Positions 46,518 through 59,759 of a stretch of DNA of 64,000 nucleotides are shown piece by piece. A model generated the notes under the pieces. The model ran no database searches. It was not told where the DNA came from and worked only from the letters and a program-made list of their open reading frames with translations. Positions within the stretch are counted from its first letter, which is position 1. The number at the start of each line of letters is the position of its first letter. The position numbers and the translations under genes are program-made. Origin of the DNA: Clostridiales bacterium (GTDB taxonomy: Bacteria > Bacillota > Clostridia > Christensenellales > Aristaeellaceae); contig JALFVL010000004.1 in NCBI GenBank assembly GCA_022787165.1, positions 1 to 64,000 on the forward strand, written 5' to 3'.

Positions 46518-48800
46518 TTACTGAAGCTCAACGAAATAGATCATGCCGCCCGTGGTGCCCACGACGATTTCGTTGCCGTATGCGGCGGGCGTCGAGCGAA
46601 TCGCACTGCCGAGATTGACGGTGCTGATCGTCGTGCCGCTGAAGCCATCCATCAGGCGCAGTGTGCCATTCTCGTCGCCCATCACCAGATAGCTCTTGCC
46701 ATCGGGCTGGTACATCGCGATCGGAGAGGAGACGGAATCGACGTCGATCGGCTGGCTCCAGACCTCTTCACCGGTCTCCTTGTCAAGCGCATAGACGACG
46801 GCATAGTTATTCTTGTCGTCGATGACCACGCGGTTGACGTTGAAGATCACCAGATCGCTGATATCTCCCTGGCCGATGAGCGGCGCAGCCATCAAGCCGG
46901 CATAGATGCCCTCCTTCGCGGTCTTGCTGGCATACTTGCCCTTGATTTCGCCGCCATACTCCCAGACCACTTCGCCGGTGAGCGCGTCAAGCTTGACGAG
47001 CTTGATCACGCTGCTGCGCTCACGCTTGTTGACGACGTTTCCGGCGTAGAGATAGACACCGTCTTCCTCGCATTCGAGAGAAACCGTGCCCACCACGCTG
47101 TCCTCCATGTCAAACGCCCAGACGCACTGCATCGTGTTCATGTCGACGCACTGAATCGAGCCGGCCTTGTCGCCAAAGTAGGCATAGTCGCCATACGTCG
47201 CGACGCTCGTGGAGATGCCCTGCTTCGCGTTCTTGAGCGAGGTCACATAGCCATAGGCCGTGCTCTGCGGATCGACGCTGATCTGCGCATTGTCAAGGCC
47301 AAACTCGGTATTCATCGAGAGCGCATACAGCAAGCCGTTATCCGCGCCGTAGATGACAGTATCCGAATCCGCCTCAATGATGGGCGACGTGGAAACGGAG
47401 CCGACCTTCGCGGATTTGGAGTTGTCCGAATAGCCGGTTTCAAAGCCGATGAGCTTCTGATCGATCAGGTTGTACACGCGCAGGCCCATGATGCCAGTAT
47501 AACCGGAGACCGTGTCCTGCGTCTGACCGACATACAGAAGCGGATAGCCATAGGGATTGATGCTCGCGGTCGTCTGCATCGGGAAGCCGACAGTGATCGG
47601 TTGACGGCTGTAGATCTTCTTGTCCAGATCGAAGAAGTAGATATTGCCGTCACTGGATGGGAAGATGACCTCCTTCATTGCCGTCGTCGCACGGCTCTCG
47701 TCGGAGATATTCATCATCTCACGAATGTTCTTGTACCACTTGACGATCAGCGGCTGGCTGCCGTAGCCAAAGCCCGTGTACTCGTTATCAAGCACAGTGG
47801 TACGGATGCCGCGAACCACACTGAGCTGCTCGTTGGCGACCTCAACCGTCCCCGCCGCGCTGTTCTGGCGCAGGGGACCGCCGCGGAAGGTCAGCACACC
47901 CGCCTGCTGGGAGTAGGTCGCAGGATCGCCCATGCTCACATCCTCAGCACGGCTGATCGTCTCCGTCTTCTCCCCATCGGCAAGCACAAAGCTCTCCTTA
48001 ATGACCTTGGAAGGCTCCGCGTCCTCTGCAGCGCTTGCGCTCAGCGCCTGATACGGCGTGGGCGTCGGCTCAGGTGTCGGCGTGGGCGTGGGTGTCGGGG
48101 TAGGCGTCGGCGTCGGGGTGGGCGTCGGCGTCGGGGTGGGCGTCGGCGTCGGCGTCGGGGTCGGCGTAGGCGTCGGCGTCGGGGTAGCCGTTGGGGTGGG
48201 CGTCGGCGTCGGCGTCGGCGTAGGCGTCGGAGTGGGTGTCGCGGTCGGCGTCGCAGTCGGCGCAGGCGTCGGAACTGCCGTCGGCGTCGCAGTCGGCTCA
48301 GGCGTGGCCGTCGGCGTCGCAGTCGCCATCACGATAGGCATCGGCGTTGCGGTCGGTTCGGGCGTCGCCTTGCCCGGAAGGATGCCGCCAAGCAGCGCGT
48401 CACGCTGTGCCGGGAACACAAACCAGCCTGCCACGGCCAGCGCAAGCAGCAGCACGACGATGAGCACTGCGATCAGACAGCCCTTGCCGCCCTTTTTCTT
48501 TCCTCTGCCATGCTTCGAGGCGTGGGCGCTCTCCTCCCAGCCATCGTCGTCATCCTCATCCTCAAACCACTCCTGCGGAACGGACGAGGCTGGCTTGGGC
48601 GTGCCGCCCTTGAGCACGGGCTTTTCCCGGGAGGGTGCGGAGACCGGGCGCTCCTGACTGGGAGGAAGCTGCGGCTCCGGCTGCAGCGACTCCTGCGGCT
48701 CCTCCCTTTGCTGCCTTTCAAATTCTTCAAAAGCCTTTTCCTGAGCTGCGGCTCTCCTGCGCCTGCGCGGTTCCGGCGTTCCGTTCTTCTGTTCGTCCAA
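46518..48800 (-). CDS. Membrane-anchored PQQ-type beta-propeller protein with Thr-Pro linker
   Basis: About 760 aa. The N-terminal ~105 residues are charged and probably cytoplasmic. A basic stretch ([12 protein letters not shown]) and a membrane helix (residues ~110-132) follow, then a Thr-Pro repeat linker (~140-255). A C-terminal PQQ-like propeller (~300-760) carries repeats such as [12 protein letters not shown] and [12 protein letters not shown]. The propeller should lie outside the cell. No ligand is evident; related proteins serve as scaffolds or sensors. The start is probably TTG 48800, eight bases after GAGG; a GTG at 48809 overlaps that site. Confidence 0.85.
48058..48360. repeat. 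GGCGTC-type microsatellite coding a Thr-Pro linker
   Basis: Imperfect tandem hexamers of the GGCGTC/GGGGTC type cover about 300 bases and encode mostly TP repeats on the minus strand. The plus strand has an open Gly-Val repeat frame, which is a by-product. Length may vary between strains by slippage. Confidence 0.85.
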
Positions 48801-48965
48801 ACTGTACACCTCATTTCAGACAATGTCTTGAATCATTATACAGGAATTTCTGACTTTTCTCAATCCCATTTTCGCGAAAACCTGTCTTCCGCTCCATTTT
48901 TATCCTGACAGCCTACGAAATGCTTCATAGAATGAAGTGAAGACTCCTAAAAGGAGGAACCGCCC

Positions 48966-52947: not shown

Positions 52948-53397
52948 TCACCGGATAATGCCGCGAAAGCGGCGCATGACCGCATCCACGTCTTCATTGG
53001 AACGAACGATCACGAGAATCGTGTTGTCGCCTGCGATGGTGCCCAGCACCTCTGGCCACTTGAGGCAGTCCACCGCCTCGCCGGCGACATGCGCGCTGCC
53101 CGGCAGCGTCCTGATGACGATCAGGTTATTCGCGCTGTCCATGCTGACGACAGAATCCGACAGCATGCGGATCAGGCGATCATTGGTGCCCTGCTCCTCC
53201 TTATCCATGGTCGCATAGCGGTAGCTTCCGTCCTCCGCGAGCACCTTGAGCAGATGCATCTCCTTGATATCGCGCGAAACGGTGGCCTGCGTCACCAACA
53301 GGCCGCGCTCGCCGAGCGCCTGCGCGAGTTCCTCCTGGGTCTGAATGCTTTGGCTCTCCACGATTTCGCGGATCAAAGCCTGTCGTCTCGCCTTCAT
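52948..53397 (-). CDS. argR: Arginine repressor ArgR
   Basis: 149 aa. N-terminal winged helix (MKARRQALIREIVESQSIQT, TQATVSRDIKEMHLLKV) and C-terminal arginine-binding and hexamerisation domain ending with GTIAGDNTILVIVRSNEDVD. With arginine it controls arginine synthesis and breakdown genes, none of which are in this window. It lies 16 bases after nadK. Confidence 0.96.
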   Translation of the reverse strand: MKARRQALIREIVESQSIQTQEELAQALGERGLLVTQATVSRDIKEMHLLKVLAEDGSYRYATMDKEEQGTNDRLIRMLSDSVVSMDSANNLIVIRTLPGSAHVAGEAVDCLKWPEVLGTIAGDNTILVIVRSNEDVDAVMRRFRGIIR

Positions 53398-54390: not shown

Positions 54391-55209
54391 TCAGCTCTCC
54401 CGCAGGCTTTGATGCGCCTGCTCCACAACAGCGTCGATCTCCTCCAGCGTGACCCGATGCGTCGCCCTCTCCGCCGGCAGGATGTACACGAGAAACTCGA
54501 TGTTCCCCTCCGGTCCCTTGATGGGCGAAAAGGAGAGCGCCTGCGCCCGCCAGCCCATGTCGTTTTCAATGAAGCCCAGAATCTCCCGGATGACGTCGCG
54601 ATGCACCTGCGCGTCGCGAACGACGCCCTTCTTGCCCACGCGCTCCGGCCCGGCCTCAAACTGGGGCTTGATCAGCGAGATAAACGCGCCCTCCTCGCCA
54701 AGAATCCCGGCGGCCGCCGGCAGAATCTTGGTAATCGAGATGAAGGAAACGTCCATCACGCCGAGCGTCGGGCGAAGCGGCAGATCCTCCGGCTTGAGGT
54801 AGCGCGCGTTCGTGCGCTCCATTACGGTCACACGCGGATCGTTGCGCAGCTTCCAGTCGAGCTGTCCATAGCCCACGTCGATCGAATAGACGTGCGCCGC
54901 GCCGTTTTGCAGCAGCACATCCGTAAACCCGCCCGTGGACGCTCCAAGATCCATCGCGACGATCCCCCTGGGATCGACCCCGAAGACCTTAAGCCCCTTT
55001 TCGAGCTTGAGCGCGCCCCGGCTGACATAGCCCGTTCCCGTCTGTCGGACGATCAGCTCGTCCGTGTCGAGCACAGAAACCGACGCCTTGGTCACCTTCG
55101 TCTCGCGGATATAGACGACGCCGGACATGATCAGCGCCTGCGCCTTTTCCCGGCTCGCTGCCAGACCGCGCTCCACCAGCGCAACATCCGCCCTCTTCTT
55201 CTCAGCCAT
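54391..55209 (-). CDS. tlyA: TlyA-family rRNA 2'-O-methyltransferase
   Basis: 272 aa from the ATG at 55209, six bases after AGGAGA. An N-terminal S4 RNA-binding domain (RADVALVERGLAASREKAQALI) precedes an FtsJ-like methyltransferase with MDLGASTGGFTDVLLQNGA and VMDVSFISI. Mycobacterial TlyA methylates 16S and 23S rRNA at cytidine 2'-OH; the name hemolysin is historical. Its start overlaps the dxs stop by 8 bases. Confidence 0.94.
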   Translation of the reverse strand: MAEKKRADVALVERGLAASREKAQALIMSGVVYIRETKVTKASVSVLDTDELIVRQTGTGYVSRGALKLEKGLKVFGVDPRGIVAMDLGASTGGFTDVLLQNGAAHVYSIDVGYGQLDWKLRNDPRVTVMERTNARYLKPEDLPLRPTLGVMDVSFISITKILPAAAGILGEEGAFISLIKPQFEAGPERVGKKGVVRDAQVHRDVIREILGFIENDMGWRAQALSFSPIKGPEGNIEFLVYILPAERATHRVTLEEIDAVVEQAHQSLRES

Positions 55210-57091
55210 CTGTTCTCTCCTGCCTGCCAAGCGCCTGTTCAAAACGCGCGGCAATCTGCTCCGGCATCAGAGCGCATTCCTCCAGCAGCTGTGCAACCGT
55301 CCCATGCGCGACAAACCGGTCGCCGATGCCCAGCATGTCGATCGGCTCGCGCACGCCGTTCATCGCGCAGAGCCTTGCGATCTCCGCCCCAAATCCGCCG
55401 ACAAGCTCGCCCTCCTCCACGACGAACAGCCCGGTCTTTTCCCGGAACAGGCGCGTGAGGCAATCCATATCCATCGGCTTGAGCGAGCAGCAGTCAATCA
55501 CGCCCACGTCATAGCCTTTCTCACGCAGCAGCGCGCTCGCGCGCACTGCATGCTGCGTCATCCGCCCATACGCGAGAATGATATATGCCTTCGAAGGCAC
55601 CATTGTCTGCCATTTGCCGACCTCGAACGTCCGCCCGTCTGCGCTCTGCGCATAGGGTTCAATCCCCTCCTTGGGATACTGCACGACACACGGCCCCTTG
55701 AGCGACAGCGTCGCGCGAACGGCCAGGCGAATCTCCTGCGTATCCCGCGGCGCGAGCAGCGTCAGATTCGGAATGCTCAGCAGCATGGGGACGCTGAGCA
55801 CGCCGTGATGCGTCTTGCCGTCGTCTCCGACGAGGCCGACATGATCCGTCAGAATGCAGACCGGCAGGTCCTGCAAGCAGACGTCATGAATAATCTGATC
55901 GTATGCGCGCTGAAGGAAGGTCGAGTATACGGCAAAATAAGGCCGCATTCCGCCGCGTGCCAGGCCGGCGGCCATGCTGACGGCATGCTGCTCCGCGATG
56001 CCGACATCAAAGAAGCGGTCGGGATAGTAGGTCGCGAACTCGTTCAGACCGGTTCCGCCCGCCATCGCCGCGGTAATCGCGACGACGCGCTCATCCTCCG
56101 CCGCCATGGCCACGAGGGTCTTGCCCGCCGCCTGGGCTGCGCTTTCCTTGCTGCTCTGGTTTCGCTTCAGGCCATTTTCCACACGGAAGGGCGCCACGCC
56201 GTGGAATTTCTCCGGCTGGCGCTCGGCAAGATCGTAGCCATAGCCCTTTTTCGTGATGACGTGGATCATCACGGGCGTGTCACTGATCTGCTTGGCCTCC
56301 TCAAAGACGTGGGTCATTTCCTCGATGTTGTGCCCGTCAAACGGTCCGAGGTACCGAAAGCCCAGTGCCTCAAACAGCTCGCCCTCCGTCACGACGGATT
56401 TGATCATGTTCTTGGCCTTCTCGATTGCCCCGGCAACCGGCTTGCCGACCAACGGGATGCGCTCCAGCCTCTGCTTGATGCGCTTCTTCCCACCATACCA
56501 GGAGGCGCTTGCGCGCAGATGCTTGAAATAAGAGGAGAGCGCGCCGACGTTTTTGGAAATTGACATCTCGTTATCGTTGAGAATGACGATCAGACGGTTA
56601 TGTCCGTTTCCCGCGTCGTTCATCGCCTCATAACACATGCCGCCAGTCAATGCGCCATCTCCGACGATCGCCACCACATGATAGTCCTCATGATGCAGAT
56701 CCCTTGCCCGCGCGAGGCCCAACGCCATCGAGATCGCGGTCGAGGAATGCCCCGTGTCAAAGAGATCGTGCTCGCTCTCCTCGCGGCAGGGGAATCCGCT
56801 CATGCCGTGGTAGGAGCGCAGCGTAGCGAACTGCTCCTGACGCCCGGTGAGCAGCTTGTGCGCGTAAATCTGATGCCCGACGTCAAAGAGAATCTTGTCC
56901 CTCGGGCTGGAAAACGCCCGATGCAGCGCAATCGTCAGCTCAACGTCCCCCAGGTTGGAGGCGAGATGGCCGCCCTGACGCGAAACGGTATCGATAATCG
57001 TCTGACGCAGCTCGGTTGCCAGCTGGGCACACTGCGTCTGATCGAGCTTCTTGACATCCTCCGGGCCGTGAATTTCCGGCAGAATTGCCAT
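55202..57091 (-). CDS. dxs: 1-deoxy-D-xylulose-5-phosphate synthase
   Basis: 629 aa from the ATG at 57091 (AAGGGGGG upstream). Thiamine-diphosphate enzyme: HQIYAHKLLTGR, the ThDP motif GDGALTGGMCYEAMND, DRFFDVGIAEQHAVSMAAG, and the transketolase C-terminal domain. It makes DXP from pyruvate and glyceraldehyde-3-phosphate, entry to the MEP isoprenoid pathway and to thiamine and pyridoxal. It shares the locus with ispA, with the OLE-like RNA and oapA between them. Confidence 0.97.
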   Translation of the reverse strand: MAILPEIHGPEDVKKLDQTQCAQLATELRQTIIDTVSRQGGHLASNLGDVELTIALHRAFSSPRDKILFDVGHQIYAHKLLTGRQEQFATLRSYHGMSGFPCREESEHDLFDTGHSSTAISMALGLARARDLHHEDYHVVAIVGDGALTGGMCYEAMNDAGNGHNRLIVILNDNEMSISKNVGALSSYFKHLRASASWYGGKKRIKQRLERIPLVGKPVAGAIEKAKNMIKSVVTEGELFEALGFRYLGPFDGHNIEEMTHVFEEAKQISDTPVMIHVITKKGYGYDLAERQPEKFHGVAPFRVENGLKRNQSSKESAAQAAGKTLVAMAAEDERVVAITAAMAGGTGLNEFATYYPDRFFDVGIAEQHAVSMAAGLARGGMRPYFAVYSTFLQRAYDQIIHDVCLQDLPVCILTDHVGLVGDDGKTHHGVLSVPMLLSIPNLTLLAPRDTQEIRLAVRATLSLKGPCVVQYPKEGIEPYAQSADGRTFEVGKWQTMVPSKAYIILAYGRMTQHAVRASALLREKGYDVGVIDCCSLKPMDMDCLTRLFREKTGLFVVEEGELVGGFGAEIARLCAMNGVREPIDMLGIGDRFVAHGTVAQLLEECALMPEQIAARFEQALGRQERTDG

Positions 57092-57104: not shown

Positions 57105-57686
57105 TTATCCTTTCTTCTTTTGCCTCGGCCACTTCTTTTTCGGCGTGCCCTTCCGTTCGAAGAGAGCCATTGCCCTGCCCACAAGCAAAACGATGCTCGA
57201 GCTTCGCTCGATGGCGAGGCCCTTACCGTAGGCCTTGCCGCCGATCATGAACGCCGAGGTAAAGGCCGTGGTCAGCATCGATGCGATGGCGCTGCGCAGG
57301 CCGAACCGCGTCAGATACACCGCAATGACCGCGCCGGCCGAGCCGGAGATGATGCCCACAATGTCGCCCACCACGTCGTTGAGGAGGCTCGAAACGCGCT
57401 CCGCCTTGCGGATCAGATGAAGTGCCTGCCTCGCGCCGGGAATCTTTTTGGAGGCCATCGCAATAAACGGCTGCTCGCTGGCGGAGGTCACAGCCGTACC
57501 GATGACGTCCGTGATGATGCCAATGAGCACCAAAACGATCAGAGAAACCAAAGCGACAAACAGGCCCGCGGACTCGACGAACACGCTGGTCAGCAGCGAC
57601 ATGACCAGAGACAGCCCGAAGGACAGGCAAACGACCGTCAGCACCCATCGCTGCTGACCTTGCTTATTCTTCTCCTTCTTGCTCAC
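57105..57686 (-). CDS. oapA: OLE-associated protein A (OapA)-like membrane protein
   Basis: 193 aa from GTG 57686 (GGAGTGA upstream). An ATG at 57719 opens the same frame, but it lies inside the terminator of the upstream RNA gene, so I reject it. About four membrane helices; LVLIGIITDVIGTAVTSASE, ASKKIPGARQALHLIRKAERVSSLLNDVVGDIVGIISGSAGA and FMIGGKAYGKGLAI match the clostridial CorB/DUF21-like family I associate with OapA. The C-terminus is strongly basic (KGTPKKKWPRQKKK). In Halalkalibacterium, OapA binds OLE RNA and holds it at the membrane. It lies directly downstream of the RNA gene. Confidence 0.82.
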   Translation of the reverse strand: MSKKEKNKQGQQRWVLTVVCLSFGLSLVMSLLTSVFVESAGLFVALVSLIVLVLIGIITDVIGTAVTSASEQPFIAMASKKIPGARQALHLIRKAERVSSLLNDVVGDIVGIISGSAGAVIAVYLTRFGLRSAIASMLTTAFTSAFMIGGKAYGKGLAIERSSSIVLLVGRAMALFERKGTPKKKWPRQKKKG

Positions 57687-57707
57687 AGATGGCTTCACTC
57701 CGATTTG

Positions 57708-57733
57708 AAAAAAGCCCACGAACCTGCGTGGGC
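57708..57733 (-). terminator. Terminator between the OLE-like RNA and oapA
   Basis: Stem GCCCACG (57714-57720) with CGTGGGC (57727-57733), 6-base loop, then six Ts on the minus strand (57708-57713). It marks the 3' end of the RNA and separates it from oapA. Confidence 0.85.
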
Positions 57734-58309
57734 GGATGACAAAAGGAAAGGTGGTGATATAACAAATAAACCTTGCGGCATAGGTTCGGTAGGATTTCCC
57801 CGTCCGTTACTTCCTGTCGCCATAGAAGCGGTTTCCCTTGAAAACGAACGTCACGCCGTCTCCGTGCGCGCGACCGAATTACCACTGAGTCCACACTGTA
57901 ATCTCTGTTATATCCCTGACAGACAGTCTAGGAGCTTTCCTCGGCAGCCTCGGTTCCTTCCTAGCCTCTTTTGCAGCCGGGGTTTCACACAGCGATCGCA
58001 TCGGTTTCCGTAAGCTCTTGGTCACCGTGCGTTGATCCATGATCCACCGCAACCGCTCAAGGCAGGCTACACTGCAGGCAGCTTGTGTACCGCCATGCAG
58101 GTTTTCATGACGCAAAGCCGTCATGCCTCCACGAAAGATGGGTCGAGCTCCGCCATGCCATTGACGGCCGCCCATAATTCTTACTTCCAGCATCAACCCC
58201 CGACTGGGCGTCAGCAGCCAACACCAGAAACTTCATCGATATGCCCTTTAACGGATTTTTAGCCCCGTCTTCAGAAGGAACTTTGCTGACTAGAATACTG
58301 CACCACCTG
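57708..58309 (-). ncRNA. ole: OLE RNA (ornate, large, extremophilic RNA), probable
   Basis: A ~600-nt transcript is predicted from the promoter at 58316-58344 to the terminator at 57708-57733. The interval has no credible ORF; short frames lack ribosome sites and family matches. Length fits OLE RNA (about 600 nt). Location fits too: OLE genes lie in the ispA-dxs isoprenoid/repair cluster directly before oapA, as here. Local structure is visible: a perfect 7-bp hairpin (58106-58112 with 58119-58125) and a longer CTAGGA/TCCTAG-closed segment (about 57926-57964). OLE forms a membrane ribonucleoprotein tied to Mg2+, cold, alcohol and carbon-source adaptation. I could not run a covariance search. 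Confidence 0.8.
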
Positions 58310-58315
58310 TCAGCT

Positions 58316-58344
58316 ATTATACCATGTCTGTCAAGCGCGCGCAA
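58316..58344 (-). promoter_or_regulatory. Promoter of the OLE-like RNA gene
   Basis: TATAAT (58316-58321) with TTGCGC (58339-58344) 17 bases upstream on the minus strand. A closer TTGACA is only 7 bases from the -10 box and is not used in that role. Start expected near 58309. Confidence 0.75.
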
Positions 58345-58380
58345 CAGCCCGCCCGGCCCAATTCTGCGCGCAGTCAACGC

Positions 58381-58848
58381 TCAGGCAACCAGCGCGCCGA
58401 CGAGAATGCCCAGCAGCGCGCCCGCCAGCACCTGAATCGGCGTATGGCCGACGAGCTCCTTGAGCCGCTCCTCGTCAAAGGCCAAGCCATTTCCGGCAAG
58501 CCCCTCGATCAGATGGTTGATCACAGCGGCATTGCGGCCCGTCGAGCGCCGCACGCCCGCCGCGTCATACATGACGACGCCGGCAAAGCAGAAGGCCAGG
58601 CCAAAGATCGTCGAGGAGAATCCCTCCCTAAAGCCGATGGTCGTCACCATGGCGCAGGCCATCGCGGAATGGGAACTCGGCATGCCTCCGGAGCCGAAAA
58701 GGCGCGTATGGTCAAAACGCCTGCTGATCGCCAGCGTCAGGAAGACCTTGAGCGCCTGCGCAATCGCCCAGGCAAGCACGGCGGCCTGTATGGGCCGGTT
58801 CGTTACGATGTCGAGCAAAATATTCACGATTGTCTGTCCCCCAGTCAC
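58381..58848 (-). CDS. Divergent PAP2-family membrane protein (YuiD/DUF212 type)
   Basis: 155 aa from GTG 58848, five bases after GGAGG and overlapping the ispA stop as GTGA. The PAP2-like motifs are SGGMPSSHSAMACA (phosphatase motif with Ser-His) and YDAAGVRRSTGRNAAVIN; four or five membrane helices. Homologues of this clade are often annotated acid phosphatase or undecaprenyl-pyrophosphate-phosphatase-like; activity is unproven. Coupling to ispA suggests a prenyl-phosphate substrate, which is inference. Confidence 0.87.
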   Translation of the reverse strand: MTGGQTIVNILLDIVTNRPIQAAVLAWAIAQALKVFLTLAISRRFDHTRLFGSGGMPSSHSAMACAMVTTIGFREGFSSTIFGLAFCFAGVVMYDAAGVRRSTGRNAAVINHLIEGLAGNGLAFDEERLKELVGHTPIQVLAGALLGILVGALVA

Positions 58849-59759
58849 TTCTTCCTCCCGCGAAGCTGCTGCGCAAACGCCTGCATGAACCAGGCACACT
58901 CGCCAAAGACAGCTATAGCCCGCTCAGCTTCATCCCACAGCGCGCGGGACTTTTCCCGCGAGGCCTGCACCCCCACAAGGGAAGGCCACGTCATTTTTCC
59001 GCGCTGCGCATCCATTCCCGTCTGTTTCCCAAGCTGCCCGGCGTCCCCTTCCACATCGAGCAGATCGTCGTCAATCTGAAATGCCAGGCCCATGCACCGG
59101 CCAAACCGCAGAAGCGCCTCCGTCTGCGCCTCGTCCGCCCCGGCAATGCAGGCAGCCGCCAGCAGCGGCGCCGTCAGCAGATCGGCAGTCTTGTGCGCAT
59201 GGATGTAGGCGAGCCTGCCCGCATCGGGCTGCATGTGCTCACTGAGCAGATCGATGCTCTGCCCCGCGATCATGCCGCTCACGCCGGCTCGCGACGCGAT
59301 CGCCTGCGCGGCAAGCACAAGACCGCGCAGGTTTTCGGGATGCGCAGCCGCGTGGTCAAGCAGGCATTCATAGGCGTAGTTGAGCAGGCCGTCGCCCGCC
59401 AGAATCGCCTGGCCCACACCGTAAACCTTGTGATTGGTCAGACGTCCCCGGCGGTAATCGTCGTCATCCATGCCCGGCAGGTCATCGTGAATCAGTGAAT
59501 AGGTGTGAATCATCTCCAGCGCCGCGGCAGGCACCTTTGCCTGCTCAAGCTCCCCGCCGAGCATCTCGCAGGCCGCCAGCAGCAGCACCGGCCTGACGCG
59601 CTTGCCCCCGGCGAGCAGACTGTAGCGCATCGCCTCGCACAGATGTGCCGGAATGATGCCGTCCTCCCGCGGCAGATCCTCGCGTGTCTGCGGCAGGAGC
59701 TTTTCGATCGTCTCCTCGACCATGCCGACATAGCGGCTGTACTGCTCATGATACGCCAT
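58845..59759 (-). CDS. ispA: Polyprenyl (farnesyl/geranyl) diphosphate synthase
   Basis: 304 aa from the ATG at 59759, seven bases after GGAG. The first aspartate-rich motif is LIHDDLPGMDDDDYRRG and the second FQIDDDLLDVEGD; LLAGGKRVRPVLLLAAC lies near the N-terminus. It condenses IPP with allylic diphosphates, downstream of Dxs in isoprenoid synthesis. The start overlaps the xseB end by 14 bases and the stop overlaps the PAP2-type gene, so the cluster is tightly coupled. Confidence 0.95.
   Translation of the reverse strand: MAYHEQYSRYVGMVEETIEKLLPQTREDLPREDGIIPAHLCEAMRYSLLAGGKRVRPVLLLAACEMLGGELEQAKVPAAALEMIHTYSLIHDDLPGMDDDDYRRGRLTNHKVYGVGQAILAGDGLLNYAYECLLDHAAAHPENLRGLVLAAQAIASRAGVSGMIAGQSIDLLSEHMQPDAGRLAYIHAHKTADLLTAPLLAAACIAGADEAQTEALLRFGRCMGLAFQIDDDLLDVEGDAGQLGKQTGMDAQRGKMTWPSLVGVQASREKSRALWDEAERAIAVFGECAWFMQAFAQQLRGRKK

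Follow-up and report, generated by a model that had tools for sequence, protein, structure and literature searches.

A full-length OLE RNA gene beside oapA in an Aristaeellaceae genome, and its presence and absence within the genus

Here, we describe a full-length OLE RNA gene and its adjoining oapA gene in a Clostridiales genome (GTDB order Christensenellales, family Aristaeellaceae; assembly GCA_022787165.1). The window, by which we mean the whole analysed stretch of 64,000 nt (contig JALFVL010000004.1, positions 1 to 64,000), carries both genes on its minus strand. Among structured RNAs of bacteria that have no assigned biochemical function, OLE is one of the largest, and it is known to work at the cell membrane. 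Our working model is that of a gene of the full-length OLE class that would yield its own transcript, adopt the OLE fold, have OapA, OapB, OapC and bS21 as partners and serve in stress management. To this model as a whole we give a probability of about 0.9. As an OLE RNA the copy is ordinary and looks intact, and the RNA family is already known.

Identity and genomic context of the OLE gene

Comparison of the window with 4227 Rfam families gave a match to OLE (RF01071) at 57735-58322 on the minus strand, with 462.8 bits (the Rfam gathering score is 50 bits) and an E value of 1.2e-132, covering model positions 1-616 and hence the full model. This was the sole Rfam hit in the whole window, and a permissive Rfam scan of 57600-58450 added no other RNA family. 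No second OLE copy was found in the window's genome, which is 90% complete with 2.49 Mb in 42 contigs, and none of the 14 control genomes gave a match. The sequence-only reading had proposed an OLE gene at this place and had named a covariance search of the interval as the test on which the proposal could fail. A full-length match far above threshold, with oapA as neighbour and another family absent, bears the proposal out. The gene and its surroundings are as follows.

57735..58322, minus strand: OLE RNA (RF01071), 588 nt; Rfam match, covariation in 16 sequences
58381..58851, minus strand: DUF212 (divergent PAP2) gene, directly upstream of OLE; PF02681, E 1.4e-48
58845..59759, minus strand: ispA, farnesyl diphosphate synthase; Pfam-based
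57105..57686, minus strand: oapA, 193 aa, GTG start; 39-83% identity to relatives, DVVGD, weak CNNM similarity
55202..57091, minus strand: dxs; PF13292, E 3.1e-115
52948..53397, minus strand: argR, in the same gene run; Pfam-based

With names read from Pfam matches, the minus-strand order is xseA, xseB, ispA, DUF212, OLE, oapA, dxs, tlyA, nadK, argR, recN. The gene had been placed between ispA and dxs, which is right in outline, but its direct upstream neighbour is the DUF212 gene and ispA lies one gene further. The non-coding gap, put earlier at about 660 bp, is real, but measures 694 nt from the stop of the DUF212 gene (58381) to the GTG start of oapA (57686). That the organism is a spore-former is supported by matches to SpoIVB and SpoIIP in the window and to SpoIIIAA/SpoIIIAE beyond its end. 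Elsewhere in the window, positions 48054-48355 hold a degenerate tandem repeat of period 6 (CGGCGT, 44 copies) that overlaps a period-30 array. It lies inside an open reading frame (46518-48809) with beta-propeller-like matches.

The next gene after OLE, on the same strand, is oapA, and its identity as an OapA-type protein, already suspected from the sequence alone, is confirmed by its identity to relatives, the DVVGD motif and a weak CNNM similarity. The DxxxD motif (D104-D108) is invariant in 16/16 aligned OapAs. This alignment includes 13 of the 14 other OapAs of the genus; that of G024 (L027) was left out of it because the match ran over a stop, and was included in a later OapA alignment. 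Against the CNNM family (PF01595) the protein scores E 0.006, which is below the cut-off, and 15/16 alignment members match at E 1 or better. Similarity to the CNNM region of an MpfA profile built for the genus is likewise weak (probability 43). A distant similarity of OapA to CNNM, below the level of MpfA, is described in PMC11332333. When PDB sequences were searched with the OapA profile, only chance matches came back (best E 0.69). A more distant OapA relative, 39% identical, is encoded in a Eubacteriaceae MAG (L071:1633-2181). OLE was not found in the 1.6 kb upstream of that oapA, a permissive threshold included, and may lie elsewhere because the locus begins at the contig start.

Distribution of OLE and oapA

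OLE was found in 15/29 genomes of the window's genus and oapA in the same 15, while 14 had neither, so that the two agree in 29/29. OLE and oapA behave as one unit in this genus, present or absent together. In the family, 10/194 genomes and 3/39 genera carry OLE (genomes at least 85% complete; stricter filter, which loses some weak matches). In the order it is found in 154/395 genomes examined and 63/134 genera (an even sample of a larger group, limited to a completeness of 90% or more; again with the stricter filter that loses some weak matches). OLE is therefore common in the order and rare in the family. The new host had been presented as an extension of the range of OLE. This carries little weight, since 154/395 genomes of the same order have the RNA and a GTDB-wide OLE survey is published (PMC11332333). 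Three further genomes of the order (G234, G355, G528) gave two to four separate OLE matches each, with weaker best scores, which are perhaps interrupted or split copies.

The place of the unit in the chromosome can be followed across the genus. Nine congeners lacking OLE have an assembled dxs locus; the order is ispA-DUF212-dxs in eight and ispA-dxs in G021, oapA is absent in 9/9, and neighbouring matches are 30-179 nt apart. No OLE was found elsewhere in these nine genomes. In five more OLE-minus genomes (G002, G007, G010, G012, G017) full-length dxs was not found; these were not used for comparing the locus, and a gap in the assembly may account for the absence of OLE from them. In a tree of dxs and tlyA, the OLE-minus genome G011 is sister to the OLE-plus G005 (support 100) and G004 groups with the OLE-plus G015 and G026 (support 89), while the other seven OLE-minus genomes form one clade (support 87). 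This suggests three losses of OLE-oapA in the genus as the simplest reading, in a tree whose only two genomes from outside the genus were both chosen as OLE-plus, which favours loss.

Because of this choice, and because most of the family examined is OLE-minus, gain has to be weighed as an alternative, in which part of the genus would have acquired OLE and oapA by horizontal transfer. The 10/194 genomes and 3/39 genera of the family would fit such a history. We nevertheless consider transfer rather unlikely, as G059, from another genus of the family, has the unit in the same position and gene order (folD-xseA-xseB-ispA-DUF212-OLE-oapA-dxs-tlyA), the RNA is present in so much of the order, and two of the genomes without OLE, G011 and G004, are nested among those that carry it.

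Probable promoter and intrinsic terminator

Two elements bound the RNA gene and are kept across the genus.

58316..58344, minus strand: probable promoter, TTGCGC (58344-58339), a 17-nt spacer ending in TG-N, and TATAAT (58321-58316); genus conservation
57714..57733, minus strand: intrinsic terminator between OLE and oapA, GCCCACG, 6-nt loop, CGTGGGC, then TTTTTT; 14/14 genus sequences

The TATAAT at 58321-58316 (minus strand) is preceded by TG-N and so is an extended -10 element, with TTGCGC 17 nt upstream. The sequence TGNTATAAT is present in 14/14 genus sequences examined. TTGC at the same spacing occurs in 12/14 (absent from G028 and G001) and also in two OLE loci from outside the genus, G059 and G147. 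A scan for sigma-70 promoters by plain consensus found 0 and did not score the TATAAT/TTGCGC element. The TATAAT promoter and the terminator noticed at first sight both stand up to comparison, the former through its conservation in all 14 sequences where a consensus scan alone misses it, the latter as a hairpin with T run at 57733-57714. Behind OLE, hairpin and T run are found in 14/14 genus sequences and begin within 26 nt in 13; in G025 the hairpin begins only 268 nt behind the OLE end. A TTGACA at 58329-58334, just upstream of the extended -10, is shared by 13/14 genus sequences (not G023) and absent from G059 and G147; it is too near the extended -10 for a normal -35.

Judging from these conserved elements, OLE would have an extended -10 promoter of its own, and transcription starting there would stop at the intrinsic terminator, so that the RNA would measure about 580-600 nt. 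The oapA gene behind the terminator might then be expressed via read-through or from another start. In H. halodurans, ole is reported within a polycistronic RNA (PMC12265935), and because of this report, we infer rather than assert the use of its own promoter and an independent transcript here. A long 5' leader of oapA, that is a cis-regulatory RNA instead of a free one, would fit with oapA lying directly behind on the same strand. The terminator standing between the two in every genus sequence compared, together with the match to the full OLE model, makes such a leader very improbable.

Structure of the RNA

The window's OLE folds more stably than expected from its composition (z = -3.36; 0/100 shuffles as stable), and with the full OLE model matched, the internal hairpins noticed earlier are real features. 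For comparison, we aligned 16 OLE sequences. Fourteen are the full-length ones among 15 copies in the genus, the copy of G018 being omitted because a contig end cuts it, and the other two come from G059 and G147. The Rfam structure line was projected onto the alignment, the P7 pairs were re-set, and 146 pairs were tested. Over the 16 sequences, 90.5% of cells at Rfam-structure pairs were paired, compared with 86.2% after shuffling, and slid versions of the structure dropped to 35.6-49.1%. Pairs with changes on both sides numbered 46 versus 19.2 in shuffles, with 0/500 as high. This covariation shows that the OLE structure is the one that the RNA would form.

RNAalifold on the 16 sequences added the helices P1, P2, P3.1 and P3, which the Rfam line leaves unpaired and whose names we assigned by position. 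The elements read from this and from the alignment, all on the minus strand, are these.

57750..58307, minus strand: P1 closing helix, 58307-58302 with 57755-57750; RNAalifold, 16 sequences
57923..58301, minus strand: P2, 58301-58290 with 57931-57923, with a CUAG palindrome inside that is invariant in 16/16; RNAalifold
57953..58281, minus strand: P3 of 9 bp (58281-58273 with 57961-57953) plus P3.1 of 4 bp (58288-58285 with 57948-57945); RNAalifold, covariation
58235..58240, minus strand: probable P4a site, a palindrome (AUCGAU) preceding P5; invariant in 16/16
58184..58230, minus strand: P5/P5.1, loop GCCCA (58209-58205) identical in 16/16; alignment
58133..58180, minus strand: P6/P6.1, loop with AUGGCA (58161-58156); CAAUGGCAUG identical in 16/16; alignment
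57964..58063, minus strand: P9, 100 nt, apex AAGAGCUUAC (58019-58010); alignment
57801..57850, minus strand: P12/P13-type hairpin region, GGCGAC (57821-57816) identical in 15/16, GGUGAC in G059; assigned by position

By position, several of these elements would correspond to protein sites known from other OLE RNAs. PMC12265935 places the OapA sites at palindromes within or close to P2 and P4a, and describes binding of OapB to P12.2 and P13. Conserved segments of the region of the OapC kink-turn and bS21 site are present in our alignment as well. The window's P6 lacks the CCUCCU seen in P6 of H. halodurans, and the window's P7 is shorter than the Rfam consensus. The Domain 1 loops that would make the dimer contacts (the A-rich L4, and L5.1 with L6.1) are identical in sequence in 16/16. 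At the P9 apex, a self-complementary stretch of at least 4 nt (G-U allowed) occurs in 15/16 sequences, not in G014; a stretch of such length is likely to arise by chance. The apex is compatible with a kissing loop on this weak test.

P3 has been proposed in print as a membrane-crossing helix. In the alignment, its 9 pairs have 91.6% of cells paired and a covariation score of 0.558, as against 0.257 in shuffles (0/500), in a test that favours P3, since RNAalifold had singled out this helix on the very alignment used for testing. Six of its pairs show changes on both sides, a count that alone is unexceptional, being reached by 67/500 shuffles. Together, P3 and P3.1 measure 13 bp, against a typical 12 in PMC12265935.

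Partner proteins in the genome

The earlier proposal to look for oapB and oapC elsewhere in the genome was followed, and homologues of both were found. The OapC homologue lies on contig C41 (G000:C41), with 3v7e (L7Ae-like) and 4lck (YbxF) as its best PDB matches (E 1e-15), and adjoins the start of a gene that we take, by eye, to be rpsL. OapB was not identified by a search with PF00467 (KOW). It was located through gene order as the open reading frame after map, the names map and adk being our assumption from recognition by eye. The OapB protein of the congener G022 has 7k9b (OLE-associated protein B) as its best PDB match (E 1.1e-8), and the copy in the window's genome (G000:C41:20303-20602) is 93% identical to it. 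It also resembles eL14, with eL14 chains behind 7k9b and the NCBIfam L14e model reaching 43.4 of 87 bits, below its cut-off; because of these other matches, binding of OLE by this homologue is something we infer. A bS21 homologue is found on contig C42. ArgR, whose gene lies in the run described above, is named as an unpublished OLE partner in PMC12265935.

Across the genus these proteins do not follow the RNA. OapB was found in 9/15 OLE-plus and 9/14 OLE-minus genomes, L7Ae-family hits, which include YlxQ-type proteins, in 26/29, and bS21 in 25/29. Neither OapB nor OapC can therefore serve to mark OLE in this genus. The OapBs of the OLE-plus genomes and of the OLE-minus G011, G012 and G017 are 89-98% identical to the G022 protein, those of the OLE-minus G003, G007, G009, G010, G021 and G027 only 43-56%, a split that distance between clades may explain.

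The structural and partner data bear on whether the gene could be a decayed, functionless OLE. The unit was not found in 14/29 genus genomes and loss may therefore be common, and the short P7 could be taken as a sign of erosion. Yet the match is full-length, its motifs are invariant in 16/16 sequences, changes are compensatory, the oapA frame is without stops, and OapB, OapC and bS21 homologues are in the genome, so that decay is extremely improbable. That the interval instead encodes a protein has a negligible chance, for although mechanical open reading frames lie in or across it on both strands (for example one of 105 aa on the minus strand at 57879-58196, and one of 297 aa on the plus strand at 57120-58013, the latter lying for the most part antisense to oapA), sequence constraint tracks base pairing and relatives differ within the interval by single-base length changes.

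Comparison with known OLE systems

An OLE RNA gene of the full-length class is the reading that we carry forward. It has in common with the OLE of H. halodurans the full model, an adjacent oapA with DxxxD, homologues of OapB, OapC and bS21 in the genome, conserved dimer-contact loops and a cluster of isoprenoid and repair genes. It differs in its short P7, in the DUF212 gene between ispA and OLE, and in what appear to be its own conserved promoter and terminator, the cluster of H. halodurans having been reported to be polycistronic. OLE variants 1 and 2 are assigned to the TANB77 and RF39 clades in PMC11332333. With these the window's RNA shares the class, and it appears set apart from them by its 100-nt P9, its P8 hairpin and the OapB-site region, which it keeps, and by the short P7.

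Homology with Halalkalibacterium halodurans, together with published cryo-EM work, points to an RNA that would dimerise, be kept at the membrane by OapA and bind OapC, bS21 and OapB. By homology with the same organism, it may help to manage Mg2+, cold, alcohol and carbon-source stress.

OLE-oapA and MpfA-type proteins

The MpfA family of CNNM-CBS-CorC/HlyC transporters shares with OapA a weakly similar CNNM region and differs in having no RNA and the extra CBS and CorC/HlyC domains. Within the genus, a CorC_HlyC domain was found in 5/15 OLE-plus and 12/14 OLE-minus genomes (Fisher p 0.008, a test that ignores phylogeny). With only the nine assembled OLE-minus loci counted, 8/9 carry it against 5/15 of the OLE carriers (Fisher p 0.013, again ignoring phylogeny), and among genomes at least 85% complete 1/8 OLE-plus and 7/7 OLE-minus do. 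None was found in the window's own genome. The domain is widespread, being present in 11/14 control genomes, and among the 23 CorC_HlyC matches the full MpfA architecture (CNNM, CBS, CorC_HlyC) was seen in 10/10 of those checked. Most genomes of the genus without OLE-oapA would thus hold an MpfA-type protein.

The pattern has to be read with its phylogeny. Seven of the nine OLE-minus genomes are one clade, G006 lacks both OLE and MpfA, and five carriers have both. G004 and G011 have MpfA-type proteins of different groups, and one event therefore fails to explain both. An anticorrelation of OLE and MpfA was published by Fernando and Breaker (PMC11332333). The genus agrees with it and adds no new principle.

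A more far-reaching idea is that, in this genus of gut bacteria, OLE-oapA and the MpfA-type transporters could stand in for each other in coping with the same ion stress, OLE and OapA together being a split MpfA in which the RNA replaces CBS and CorC/HlyC, and P3 being constrained for length and pairing rather than for sequence, as expected of a membrane-crossing helix. We regard this as speculative and unlikely to hold as stated.

The added value of the present data is comparative. Through the alignment, the published membrane-crossing candidate P3 gains support from covariation. Related species of the genus either have the unit at this place or lack it there, which offers a compact natural comparison for the proposal, already in print, of a replacement of OLE by MpfA, and this within-genus comparison is the part worth following.
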